From NCBI GenBank assembly GCA_013215945.1, contig JABSOM010000012.1:1-64000 (forward strand): a stretch of DNA of 64,000 nucleotides. The letters run 5' to 3'. This stretch comes from Campylobacteraceae bacterium (GTDB taxonomy: Bacteria; Campylobacterota; Campylobacteria; Campylobacterales; Arcobacteraceae). The notes under the pieces were generated by a model that searched no databases, had not been told where the DNA came from, and saw only the letters and a program-made list of their open reading frames with translations. Position numbers and translations under genes: made by a program. Of the stretch, positions 58,804 to 64,000 are shown one piece after another (position 1 is the first letter of the stretch; each line of letters starts with the position of its first letter).

Positions 58804-59382
58804 TTAGAGACTCTTTTGTTTTTTTTGAAGAAACCATAAAAAAGAAAACATCAAACCAGGGGTTTTAGCTTTACTCTCATCATACATAAATTCTTCATAC
58901 TCAGCAATGGGTAAATAAAACGATTCAATTTGTTCATCATTAATACCGCCCCCTTCGTGTATTTTCATAGCATTATTGATTTTTGCATAAAACAGTGTTT
59001 GAAGGCCTCCACTTATTCCAACGTTTGTAAAAAAAGAAGATATTTTTTCTATTTTTTCTAAAGGAACATCGTAACCACATTCTTCATCTATTTCTTCTTT
59101 TGCAATTACATTTAAAGCCTTGTCTTTATCTACTAGTCCTGCACATAATTCATAGGTAAATTCTTTGCTTTTATCATTTAAATAAACAGGTGCTCTAAAC
59201 TGTTTTACGAGTAAAAATGCATTTTTTTCTTCATGATATAAAAGCACAGAAACAGAAGAAAAACTCTCTACGGCTTCCCATATTTTATCGATTCCATTTA
59301 AGGTATAAGTCAGTTGTACGGGTTTTACATAATTTGTATTTTTAAGATCTTGTTTTTTAAAGTTTTTAATTTGATTTTTCAT
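58804..59382 (-). CDS. NUDIX hydrolase, NUDT14-like UDP-sugar diphosphatase
   Basis: The 192-residue protein is a Nudix hydrolase. Its Nudix box, from GLVDKD to EEIDEECGY, keeps the essential EExGY end, but the first Glu is Lys and the Arg is Glu. The N-terminal VKQFRAPVYL and FTYELCAGLVDKDKALNVIA, and the later FFTNVGISGGLQTLFYAKI, match NUDT14-type UDP-sugar pyrophosphatases and ADP-sugar relatives better than general ADP-ribose enzymes. The exact substrate is not known. It stands alone. Confidence 0.78.
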   Translation of the reverse strand: MKNQIKNFKKQDLKNTNYVKPVQLTYTLNGIDKIWEAVESFSSVSVLLYHEEKNAFLLVKQFRAPVYLNDKSKEFTYELCAGLVDKDKALNVIAKEEIDEECGYDVPLEKIEKISSFFTNVGISGGLQTLFYAKINNAMKIHEGGGINDEQIESFYLPIAEYEEFMYDESKAKTPGLMFSFLWFLQKKQKSL

Positions 59383-59472: not shown

Positions 59473-60147
59473 TTATTTTAGCATTGCTTTTATTTTTTTA
59501 ATAAATATAGGCAATAAAGATAATAAGCCCAAAAGTAAAAAAGCAAACAATATATTTTGAGTGAAAATATCGCTTAGGGCATTAATACTTGATAATTGAC
59601 TTCCTGCATAAGTATAAACAAATGAACCAGGAATTATTCCTAAAGACGTAGTAATAACAAAAGATTTAAGATCAAGTTTGGTAATACCACATAAAAAGTT
59701 TACTAAAAAGAAAGGGAAAATAGGCAAAAAACGCAAAGAAAACAAATACTGGTACTTATTTGTTTCAAGTTCTTTATTAAAGGTTTTTAAAGCTACTTCA
59801 TACTTCTTTTGTAGTTTTGCCCCTAAAATATAACGTGCAAAACTAAAAGCTGCTATAGCTCCAAGAGTAGCTCCTATATTTACAAACAATAATCCATATA
59901 CACTTCCAAATAAAAAGCCTCCACTTAAGGTTAAGAGTGTAGCAATAGGTAATAAAAAAGCTACTGCAGAAATATATAAAGAAATAAACAATAAAACACT
60001 TAAGAGATAATTGTTTTGTACAAAAGCAGATAAAGAATCTTTTTGATTTTTAAGATTTTCAAAAGAAAAAAAACTGTCCAGCTCAAAATATTTAATTGCA
60101 AAAACAAAAAGTATAAATACTGCTACAAAAAATAATCTAGTTTTCAT
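59473..60147 (-). CDS. TVP38/TMEM64 family membrane protein
   Basis: The 224-residue protein has about six membrane helices and the DedA-like central region: LTLSGGFLFGSVYGLLFVNI, then GATLGAIAAFSFARYILG, and RFLPIFPFFLVNFLCG followed by FVITTSLGIIPGSFVYTYAG. The start is the ATG at 60147, which overlaps the FAD oxidoreductase stop by 11 bases. The family is thought to be transporters or scramblases; in this operon its partner is the oxidoreductase. Confidence 0.85.
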   Translation of the reverse strand: MKTRLFFVAVFILFVFAIKYFELDSFFSFENLKNQKDSLSAFVQNNYLLSVLLFISLYISAVAFLLPIATLLTLSGGFLFGSVYGLLFVNIGATLGAIAAFSFARYILGAKLQKKYEVALKTFNKELETNKYQYLFSLRFLPIFPFFLVNFLCGITKLDLKSFVITTSLGIIPGSFVYTYAGSQLSSINALSDIFTQNILFAFLLLGLLSLLPIFIKKIKAMLK

Positions 60148-61579
60148 TGTTTTTACTTTTAAATACACTTAAAATCTTTTTTAACAATAATAAAGCTTTG
60201 TTGTTTAAGAGTTTGTTGATATAAAACTTTTTTGCTGGTTGTTTTATAATATCTGCATACGTAGGATATAAGTATATCATTTTGGATAATTTATCAAAAG
60301 AAATATCAAATGTTTTTGCTATTTGTAATTGATGTATTAACTCCCCTGCTCGCGAGCCTAAAATACTAGCAGCAAGAATTTTGCCATTGTTTAAAACAGA
60401 TACTTTTATCATACCCACTTTGTTTACATCCGTATATCCCCTATCAGAGTTTTTATATTCAAAACTATAAATGCTGTATTCATTCTTTTTATATTTATTT
60501 TCTATTTCTTTTTTATTTAATCCAATATGTGCAAGTTCTGGTTGGGCATAAATACAAGAACCAATATGTTCATATGATATTTTTTGTTTAATAGGTAAAA
60601 CAATATTTGAGGCTGCTTTAATTGCTTCTTGTTCTGCTATATGCGTATATTTATAAGCAGAACTCACATCTCCAATGGCATAAATATTCTTATTCGCACT
60701 TTGTAAATATTCATTTACTATTATTCCATTTTCATTGCATGTCACTTTTGCTTTTTCTAAATTAATATTGCTATTGGCTTTTCTTCCTATTGCAAAAAGA
60801 ATTTTTTGGGCTTGGATATTTCCACATTTTTCTTTTCTTTCATAATCTAAAGAAATACCATTTGATGTTTTTTGAACTTCTAATAATTTGCTATTTGAAA
60901 AAAAAGAAATACCTTCTTTTATAAGCTCTTTAAGTAAAATACCACTTAGTTCTTCATCATACGTTTTTAGTATTCCACTTGACCTAGAAAATAAACTTAT
61001 CTTTGATCCCAAACGATTAAAAGCACTGGCCATTTCAATACCAATAGCACCAGTTCCTACAATAATCAAAGATTCTGGAATCTTTTCTTGTAAAAACATA
61101 TTTGCATTAGTTAAATAAGGAACAGTTTTTATTCCTTTTATTGTAGGAATAATAGCACTTGAACCTGTTGCAATAATGTATTTGTTTGCGCAATAGATTT
61201 TATCATTGACCTTAATTTCATTCTCACTAATGAAATGGGCTCTTCCTTGTATAATAGAAATACCTTCTTTCTCAAAAATTTCAGGTGTTTCATGAGAATA
61301 AATTTCTGCTACGATTGAACGTACATGAGCTAGTACATTTTTTGTATCTATTTTTACGTCATTTGAAGCAAGGCCATATTTTGAAATATGTTTTGTTTCA
61401 TAAGCAACATTGGCACATTTTAATAAAGCTTTTGAAGGAATACATCCACTGTGTGTACAATCCCCTCCTAATAAAGCTTCTTCTACAATAGCAACTTTTT
61501 TTCCAAAAGCTTTTAACAATTTAGAAGAAACAAGACCAGCAGGACCTCCTCCAATAATAATTACGTCAAATTTTTCCAT
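60137..61579 (-). CDS. FAD-dependent dithiol oxidoreductase (mercuric reductase-like)
   Basis: The 480-residue protein is a class I pyridine nucleotide-disulfide oxidoreductase: FAD-binding IIIGGGPAGLVSSK at the N terminus, redox pair GGDCTHSGCIPSKALLK (Cys41 and Cys46), an NAD(P) site (IVGTGAIGIEMASAF), a second FAD motif (IYAIGDVSSAYKYTHIAEQEA) and the C-terminal dimer domain. It lacks an N-terminal HMA domain and the C-terminal vicinal cysteine pair of true MerA, so it belongs to the mercuric-reductase-like group seen with TVP38 proteins. It lies between the arsenosugar glycosyltransferase (19-base overlap) and the TVP38 gene, so arsenic or sulfur chemistry is a possible role. Confidence 0.85.
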   Translation of the reverse strand: MEKFDVIIIGGGPAGLVSSKLLKAFGKKVAIVEEALLGGDCTHSGCIPSKALLKCANVAYETKHISKYGLASNDVKIDTKNVLAHVRSIVAEIYSHETPEIFEKEGISIIQGRAHFISENEIKVNDKIYCANKYIIATGSSAIIPTIKGIKTVPYLTNANMFLQEKIPESLIIVGTGAIGIEMASAFNRLGSKISLFSRSSGILKTYDEELSGILLKELIKEGISFFSNSKLLEVQKTSNGISLDYERKEKCGNIQAQKILFAIGRKANSNINLEKAKVTCNENGIIVNEYLQSANKNIYAIGDVSSAYKYTHIAEQEAIKAASNIVLPIKQKISYEHIGSCIYAQPELAHIGLNKKEIENKYKKNEYSIYSFEYKNSDRGYTDVNKVGMIKVSVLNNGKILAASILGSRAGELIHQLQIAKTFDISFDKLSKMIYLYPTYADIIKQPAKKFYINKLLNNKALLLLKKILSVFKSKNNEN

Positions 61580-62223
61580 GAAGTACTTTCCTTTAAATAG
61601 TGTAATGTGTGATCAAGCATAAAATCATTGTGTTTAAACTCATCATAAAATCTTTGTAAATCTTCACTGTCATCAATATCATTTAAATTTTCAAGCAAAG
61701 CTAATTTTTTAACATTTAGTTTTTGTAAGGTTTGGGTAAAAACCATAGGGCTGCTCCAAGAAATATTTTCAAAGACATTTTTATTAAAGCTTGTTTTATT
61801 AAAAGCAATTAAATAATATCCTCCATCATCAGCAGGGCCTAATACAATTTCTTTTGTATTTAATTTTAAAAAAGCTTCATTTATAAAAGAATGTCTAATA
61901 TGAGGCGTATCACTTCCGATTAAAACTACTTTTTCATAAAATTCAAATTCATTCATGAAAGCTGTTTTCATTTTAAGCCCTAAATTACCATCAACTTGTG
62001 AAAAAACACAAGAAAAGTTAAATATTTTTTGTGTTTTTTCTTTTGAACCTGTTACATACATTTTAATATCATAGTTTTTTGATTCTACATTCACAAGCAA
62101 ATCTTTTACAAAACATTTATATAACTCTAAAACAAATTCATCTCCAAGCTTATTTGCCAGTCTTGTTTTAACAAAACCCTTTTTAGGTTCTTTTACAAAA
62201 ATAATAAGTAGGTTTTTATTCAT
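61561..62223 (-). CDS. TIGR04282 family arsenosugar biosynthesis glycosyltransferase
   Basis: The 220-residue protein matches TIGR04282 (DUF2064), a short GT-A-fold transferase: LLIIFVKEPKKGFVKTRLA at the N terminus, then VVLIGSDTPHIRHSFI, and LGPADDGGYYLIAF with its conserved aspartates. The family is linked to arsenosugar biosynthesis by its regular place beside ArsS and ArsM; it may add or shape the ribose-derived sugar part. The ATG at 62223 gives the usual start, while a TTG four codons earlier has no better site. It lies 36 bases after the fusion gene. Confidence 0.85.
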   Translation of the reverse strand: MNKNLLIIFVKEPKKGFVKTRLANKLGDEFVLELYKCFVKDLLVNVESKNYDIKMYVTGSKEKTQKIFNFSCVFSQVDGNLGLKMKTAFMNEFEFYEKVVLIGSDTPHIRHSFINEAFLKLNTKEIVLGPADDGGYYLIAFNKTSFNKNVFENISWSSPMVFTQTLQKLNVKKLALLENLNDIDDSEDLQRFYDEFKHNDFMLDHTLHYLKESTSWKNLT

Positions 62224-62259: not shown

Positions 62260-64000
62260 TTAACAACATGCTACTACCCCATTTTCTTTTTCTTCATTTT
62301 TAGCCATACTAGCAAGTGTAGCACAGGCTTTAAATTCTCCAAAATGGGTATTACTATTACCTTGTAGTTCAAAATACTTTTTATATCTTGTTTTCATTAA
62401 CATATCCGCTGTATTTTTACATACATGCTCAGGTCTGTTAATTTCAAAAAGATGATTTGCATCCAATAAAAACTCTGCTTTACAATATTCAATTCCACCT
62501 TTATAAATAATACTTTGTCCATAATCTTCACAAACAGAATCTAGGTTTTTTATTTTCCAAAGTCTATACGTTAATGAATAAAACTTAATATTCCCAAGAA
62601 GTTCTTTAATATTGGGATCTAAGATTTCGATTTCTTTTGAAGAAACCAAGCGTGGTTCAACAAAACCAGCTTCTATTGCATAAGTAATAAAATCATTCAC
62701 ATACAAAGCGCCTCCTAAACACTCCCCATGTAACAGTTTATTTGTTTTAAGTTCTTGCCCTAAGCGTCTGTTTGAATATACATCTGAGAAATAAAATTCT
62801 CCACCTTCTTTTAAAAGTGTATGTACTTTTTTTAAGATTTCTTTTTTATCTTTTAATAAATTTATAACACAATTGGATGTCACAATATCTAAAGAGTTTT
62901 CTTTAAAATGTTTGTCTATATTTTCTATATAATCATGAATAAAAGAGGTATTGTTTTTTTTATATTCAAAACGTCTTGTTTGTTCGTTTTGATATTTTTT
63001 TGCAACATCAATTTGATTTTTTGTCATATCAATTCCATAAACAAAACCTTCTTGCCCTGTCAATTTTGATAAAATATATACATCACGCCCACTACCACAT
63101 CCTAAATCAAGAATCTTTGCGCCTTGTAATACTTCTGGCATAGGTGAACCACAGCCATAATATTTGTCTTTAATCTCATCCATTATATAAGGCAAGGTAT
63201 CTTTTATTCTTTTAGGAATCATATCAATAGTACAACAAGCCGATGTTTTTAAATCCGAGGAAGAAGACAAAATTTCTCCATAATATTCTTTTGCATTTTC
63301 TTGGTAATCCATCTCTTCTTCTTTTGTATTTACTGCTTTTTCTTTTAGTACTTCTCCACTACAAGAAGAGCCAGAATTAACCGTACAGGCATAACAATGA
63401 GAATCAAAAGAAATTTCAGGCTTAAAATTAGAAAAATCAATATCCCAAAAATACGTATTCTCATACGCTTTGATTCTCATCTCCAAAGACAGATTAAAAT
63501 CACAGTCGTATACATAACCTTCATAATCAATTGAGAGAATATTTCTGCACATAATATTATCTAAGGTGTTTTCATTGTATTTACTTCTTAAAGTATTCAT
63601 ATACTCATCAAGCACCTTATGTTTGTTTAAATCAAATTTAAAGCGTTTGATTGGCATGTTTACAATAGTGGCCAATGAATTAAAAGAAACATCAAACTTT
63701 TCTTTTAAAATAGTTTTATATTCAAGCTCTAATTGACTCTGCGCTGCTGGAAGAAAAGTGCCTACAGGATTATAAACTAGGTCAAGATTTAAATCTCCTT
63801 TTCCATAACCCATAGTATTAAAACGTCGTAATAACTCAATAGTAGAATCATATACCCCTTTTCCTCTTTGTTTACTAGTCGTTTCTTCAAACACAGAAGG
63901 CAAAGAAGCAATTACTTTTACTTTGTATTTTATATATATATCAATAAAATGTGAATATTTTTCATCTTCTAAGACGGTTAAAGAGGTTCTAACAACTAAG
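62260..64000 (-). CDS. ArsS-ArsM fusion protein, 5' end outside window
   Basis: The frame stays open from 62260 to the window edge, so the start and the radical SAM CxxxCxxC motif lie beyond 64000. The visible N-terminal part matches ArsS (TIGR04167): VIASLPSVFEETTSKQRGKG, YNPVGTFLPAAQ, DIMCRNILSIDYEGYVYDCD, and CYACTVNSGSSCSGE. After a short linker, a full ArsM domain follows: EYYGEILSSSSDLKTSACC, YYGCGSPMPEVLQGAKILDL with GCGSGRD, SNCVINLLKDKKEIL, GECLGGALYVNDF, and the tail GVVACC. ArsM methylates arsenite; ArsS builds the deoxyadenosyl-arsenic bond of arsenosugars. The Cys in GSSC is TGT, so it is not the selenocysteine form. At least 579 residues are visible. Confidence 0.88.
   Translation of the reverse strand, partial: LVVRTSLTVLEDEKYSHFIDIYIKYKVKVIASLPSVFEETTSKQRGKGVYDSTIELLRRFNTMGYGKGDLNLDLVYNPVGTFLPAAQSQLELEYKTILKEKFDVSFNSLATIVNMPIKRFKFDLNKHKVLDEYMNTLRSKYNENTLDNIMCRNILSIDYEGYVYDCDFNLSLEMRIKAYENTYFWDIDFSNFKPEISFDSHCYACTVNSGSSCSGEVLKEKAVNTKEEEMDYQENAKEYYGEILSSSSDLKTSACCTIDMIPKRIKDTLPYIMDEIKDKYYGCGSPMPEVLQGAKILDLGCGSGRDVYILSKLTGQEGFVYGIDMTKNQIDVAKKYQNEQTRRFEYKKNNTSFIHDYIENIDKHFKENSLDIVTSNCVINLLKDKKEILKKVHTLLKEGGEFYFSDVYSNRRLGQELKTNKLLHGECLGGALYVNDFITYAIEAGFVEPRLVSSKEIEILDPNIKELLGNIKFYSLTYRLWKIKNLDSVCEDYGQSIIYKGGIEYCKAEFLLDANHLFEINRPEHVCKNTADMLMKTRYKKYFELQGNSNTHFGEFKACATLASMAKNEEKENGVVACC

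Follow-up and report, generated by a model that had tools for sequence, protein, structure and literature searches.

The window, by which is meant the whole 64 kb stretch of DNA that was analysed, is the initial part of a 112,652-base contig (C12) from the 3.24 Mb genome (G000) of a marine, Arcobacter-like member of the Campylobacterota, and it ends within arsSM, a gene encoding a real, complete and conserved fusion of the radical SAM enzyme ArsS with the arsenic methyltransferase ArsM, the two enzymes that open arsenosugar synthesis. The protein is a relative of a kind already reported and is encoded in a recognisable arsenosugar cluster; judged from its sequence, it is very probably a bifunctional enzyme of arsenosugar synthesis. 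Adjoining the cluster is a gene for a methylthioribose kinase (MTRK). On balance, we favour the view that Campylobacterota have recruited an MTRK-type enzyme on three or more occasions for a dedicated arsenosugar step, in which it phosphorylates the dimethylarsinoyl-ribose derived from 5'-deoxy-5'-dimethylarsinoyl-adenosine (DDMAA) and feeds the transferases TIGR04282 and TIGR04283. The reading as a whole, a bifunctional ArsSM with kinase and transferase steps downstream, is likely to be correct. Arsenosugars are major arsenic compounds in marine food webs, and to our knowledge the steps that lead from DDMAA to finished arsenosugars are not settled. The presence of ArsSM in one conserved cluster offers a compact gene set that could be expressed whole, and the link to MTRK points to a specific enzyme that may carry out the missing activation, together with a predicted substrate.

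A single reading frame for ArsS and ArsM

The arsSM gene is a complete open reading frame of 670 codons on the minus strand (62260–64272), of which 579 codons lie in the window (62260–64000) and the final 272 bases in contig order lie past its edge. The first-pass annotation had proposed an in-frame fusion from the minus-strand frame that stays open between the window edge and its stop at 62260, and the complete frame bears this out, with both domains in one polypeptide and all of the peptides that had been quoted found in it. Reading past 64000 recovers the radical SAM motif CNLSCKHC (CxxxCxxC; residues 26–33) and an ATG start at contig position 64272, with a Shine–Dalgarno-like site, AAGGAAGAATTC, on its 5' side. 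The genomes concerned are drafts, several of them from metagenome assemblies, where an assembly or sequencing artefact might be suspected. However, no stop or frameshift was found at the junction, and the same frame, with zero stops, recurs in nine Campylobacterota loci from separate records at 65–98% identity; because of this recurrence an artefact or frameshift is rejected as extraordinarily improbable. An internal start that could yield free ArsM was also considered, at the ATG of residue 319 behind a purine-rich stretch, and discarded as not conserved because the other four aligned proteins have no methionine there.

The ArsS half has been identified by profile search, with a match to TIGR04167 over residues 12–307 (352.3 bits; cut-off 300), and has Pfam matches to Radical_SAM and DUF3641. 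Its part within the window, to residue 307, spans 63352–64000 (minus strand), the CxxxCxxC motif being outside. ArsS has been described as an adenosylating radical SAM enzyme (PMC12159101, referring to Cheng et al., 2021). The C-terminal motif, sought as CxxCTAGxGSSC/U, is present in its cysteine form as CYACTVNSGSSC, with flanks unlike those of stand-alone ArsS: throughout the fused clade CTVNSGSSCxGEV replaces the usual CTAGxGSSCGGAL, an alteration that could signify a changed reaction. CxxxCxxC and the conserved C-terminal cysteines are retained in all nine fused copies. Selenocysteine in the C-terminal motif was ruled out, every fused copy having cysteine.

A short linker of variable length among homologues (residues 309–325; 63298–63348, minus strand) leads into the ArsM segment (residues 323–654; 62311–63306, minus strand), which matches solved ArsM structures over about 330 residues (5evj, E 3e-87; 4kw7/4fr0, E 6e-86). 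Cysteines 346, 374, 468 and 518 are in register with the catalytic and substrate-binding cysteines 44, 72, 174 and 224 of CmArsM. The stand-alone ArsM proteins of known structure (5evj, 4kw7/4fr0, 8xt7) thus share the fold family, the SAM motif and the four cysteines with this half but, unlike ArsSM, have no radical SAM domain attached. The half scores below the cut-offs of the narrow NCBI arsenite methyltransferase and arsenosugar ArsM models NF008823 and NF038099 (144.7 against 263 and 105 against 400 bits, respectively). An AlphaFold model of ArsSM built with eight sequences has a mean pLDDT of 61.7, falling below 35 over most of the junction, and does not give the orientation of the domains. 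The linker of one relative (L010/L077) contains a cysteine-rich, repeat-like insertion, SSCCSETSCSDEKVEEVSSCCVESSCSDDEAKC, which perhaps binds metal.

Spread and origin of the fusion

The fused frame was found in 5 of 397 Campylobacterota genomes, with stand-alone ArsS in 13 others; a family survey added three fused genomes (G444, G413 and G432) and a named collection one more separate locus (L040). Within that collection, the metagenome-assembled Arcobacter sp. NORP36 is a near-identical relative (98%). The two proteins are usually separate, as the first-pass annotation had held: they are unfused in 13 of the 18 Campylobacterota genomes that bear ArsS. A second phylum-level group, the one to which Micavibrio sp. 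DHS20C02 belongs, gave 114 genomes with ArsS, and the fusion is missing from every one of them, the longest frame (444 residues) being too short for it. These figures describe the two phylum-level groups surveyed, and the accompanying contig scan used narrow peptide patterns that reach near relatives only. No fused copy was found on plasmids, none of the 58 records reaching 80% query coverage.

In separate trees of the ArsS and ArsM halves the fused copies form a single clade each time (100/100), so the fusion happened a single time within the sampled set. The N-terminal DLKTSACC of the ArsM half had been taken as a hint of an algal-type origin. This idea does not hold, since DLKTSACC occurs in ordinary stand-alone bacterial ArsM of Acinetobacter and of G729, and DLQTSACC in that of Micavibrio, and the tree groups the half with bacterial ArsM, the nearest neighbours being Acinetobacter and G729. 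At one unfused locus (L097:9737–11754) the end of one of the two genes and the start of the other share 16 bases, possibly a pre-fusion state and an easy route to fusion.

The suggestion that the fusion might be an undescribed system has to be given up because a 2024 title already names an "ArsSM fusion protein", that of a sulfate-reducing bacterium of paddy soil (Yang et al., Environ Sci Technol 2024, 58:19266; cited by PMC12124457). By that title alone, the published enzyme is an arsenic-methylating fusion of ArsS with ArsM, like the one described here, and its host belongs to another phylum than the present bacterium; with the likeness drawn from the title, its pair of domains could be of the present kind or of a second kind. 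This second kind, of about 1000 residues, joins a radical SAM, an ArsM-like and a DUF5714 domain and was seen in Sulfurospirillum-like genomes (L123:10071–13055, L124:6009–9002 and L024–L035), where its cluster also encodes two TVP38 proteins, an Fe-S protein, an MTRK-like kinase and a TIGR04282–TIGR04283 fusion. At L108:9605–11494 an N-terminal part of about 320 residues, lacking a Pfam match and metallophosphoesterase-like in appearance, is joined to ArsS; similar proteins are encoded separately in L105 and L095.

The arsenosugar cluster and the adjoining kinase gene

On the minus strand, arsSM is followed by genes for a TIGR04282 transferase with a CofC-like nucleotidyltransferase fold (61561–62223), an FAD/NAD pyridine-nucleotide disulphide oxidoreductase (60137–61579) and a TVP38/VTT-domain membrane protein (59473–60168), and the TIGR04283 gene lies divergently upstream of it. 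A NUDIX hydrolase gene (58804–59382, minus strand), near the cluster in some relatives, is a putative further member. The order is retained in most relatives with a long enough contig; in some, a gene for a DUF3047 protein or for a phosphate transporter has been added within it. TIGR04282 (171 bits; cut-off 134) and TIGR04283 (215 bits; cut-off 182) both lie near ArsS, and together with the TIGR04167 match they substantiate the arsenosugar setting that had been proposed for this region. The PDB relative of the TIGR04282 protein, 3cgx, is a putative nucleotide-diphospho-sugar transferase. The Acinetobacter portensis plasmid pJNE5-X3 (L053) shares TIGR04282, TIGR04283, TVP38 and the FAD oxidoreductase, with 36% identity in ArsS and 49% in ArsM. 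However, arsS and arsM are apart there, TVP38 and the oxidoreductase form a fused pair, and the operon ends with mtnP (MTA phosphorylase) where the window's cluster has MTRK. In G581, too, mtnP lies beside arsS.

The MTRK gene occupies contig positions 65060–66292, convergent with that of TIGR04283, and its product scores 433 bits against TIGR01767 (cut-off 275). It matches MTRK of Bacillus subtilis (2olc) and the related chain 2pyw (E 2e-61 and 7e-80) and retains HGDxHTGS as HGDFHTGS. It differs from these in lying among arsenosugar genes, in a genome that lacks a partner MtnA, the isomerase that acts after MTRK in methionine salvage: no match to TIGR00512 was found in G000, which is 98.7% complete. 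MTA/SAH nucleosidase is present in the same genome. Within the family, MTRK occurs in 12 of 104 genomes, among them all six with ArsSM (Fisher p 6e-7). Three of the 12 lack MtnA, and each of these has ArsSM, with the kinase gene adjoining the cluster.

Chance placement of a kinase that serves ordinary salvage of methylthioribose or 5-deoxyribose is the alternative to be weighed here. MTRK salvages both compounds in other bacteria, 5-deoxyribose salvage being the subject of PMC6079011, and in two ArsSM genomes, G304 and G330, the sole MTRK is the one paired with MtnA, which means that some ArsSM genomes have no kinase reserved for arsenosugars. Against this, besides the missing MtnA of the window's genome, stands a survey of 50 MTRK-family loci across Campylobacterota. 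MtnA is nearby at 29 of them; TIGR04282 and/or TIGR04283 lie near 20 of the 21 MtnA-less loci, often as overlapping genes and in at least three lineages, whereas they lie near only 2 of the 29 with MtnA (Fisher p about 1e-10, uncorrected for kinship). In Sulfurospirillum-like genomes an MTRK-like gene overlaps or abuts the TIGR04282–TIGR04283 fusion gene, and in G195, whose ArsSM locus has neither transferase, this very combination of kinase gene and fused transferase gene is found elsewhere in the genome. In the MTRK tree the arsenosugar-linked copies require at least three changes of label, and the window's copy has a long branch. Salvage with a chance location is on this evidence somewhat unlikely, and a dedicated arsenosugar kinase is the reading preferred. 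The association of kinase and cluster was not encountered in the literature searched, where no paper was found tying MTRK or TIGR04282/TIGR04283 to arsenosugar steps, unlike the fusion, which had already been reported.

The proposed pathway and its alternatives

By analogy with characterised ArsM and ArsS, the C-terminal half of ArsSM would use SAM to methylate arsenite twice, giving dimethylarsenite, and the N-terminal half, as a [4Fe-4S] radical SAM enzyme, would take the 5'-deoxyadenosyl group from one more SAM and attach it to the arsenic, which yields DDMAA. The ArsSM of the paddy-soil bacterium reportedly does the same, methylating arsenite and adenosylating dimethylarsenite to DDMAA. 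Fusion would keep the two enzymes at a 1:1 ratio and, as a guess, might bring an advantage by shortening the path of toxic dimethylarsenite. Direct passing of methylated arsenic from one half to the other, raised in the first-pass annotation, is a conjecture on which the model, with its poor junction, has no bearing. The steps past DDMAA are drawn from gene context and chemistry. DDMAA is methylthioadenosine with a dimethylarsinoyl in place of the methylthio group, and because of this resemblance the housekeeping MTA/SAH nucleosidase is proposed to cut adenine from it. The MTRK-type kinase would then phosphorylate C1 of the resulting dimethylarsinoyl-ribose, an analogue of methylthioribose. 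Where mtnP lies near arsS, as in Acinetobacter and G581, MTA phosphorylase alone could generate the same 5-deoxy-5-dimethylarsinoyl-ribose 1-phosphate as nucleosidase and MTRK together. TIGR04282 could convert the 1-phosphate to a nucleotide sugar, as its CofC-like fold and its match to 3cgx suggest, and TIGR04283, a family-2 glycosyltransferase, would pass the sugar to a glycerol-type acceptor.

It is conceivable that the fusion only detoxifies, its ArsM half producing di- or trimethylated arsenic to be exported, with an ArsS half that is inactive or has another role. By itself ArsM is a widespread means of resistance, and the altered C-terminal motif of ArsS in the fused clade would fit such a role; nevertheless, both sets of ArsS cysteines persist in every fused copy and the cluster has kept both arsenosugar transferase families, which leaves detoxification alone very unlikely. 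The neighbouring transferases might instead convert DDMAA to a different organoarsenical, such as an arsenolipid or an antibiotic-like compound. They might use other acceptors, and TVP38, sometimes accompanied by DUF3047 and the phosphate transporter, may point to chemistry involving lipids or phosphate. However, the gene content fits clusters that NCBI labels as arsenosugar biosynthesis, and arsinothricin-specific genes were not seen in the neighbourhoods examined. Such a product is therefore considered improbable, and synthesis of arsenosugars remains the preferred function of ArsSM and its cluster.

Some peculiarities of the two transferase genes may be recorded. Twelve Campylobacterota clusters (L103–L107 and L109–L115), of the Campylobacteraceae type and with ArsS standing alone, encode a TIGR04282 protein that continues at its C-terminus into an APH-fold domain. 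The HGD motif of this domain is lost, so it does not serve as a clear second case of a kinase. The TIGR04283 gene beside arsSM apparently starts with ATC or ATA (L005:9361, equivalent to contig position 64360; also L079, L077, L037 and L080), ahead of which is an AAGGA-like site; ATG, GTG and TTG are absent from the stretch that separates the in-frame stop on the upstream side (visible in L079, L077 and L080) from the conserved ISIIIPV with which the protein begins. In L040 the start is TTG and in L076 it is ATG.
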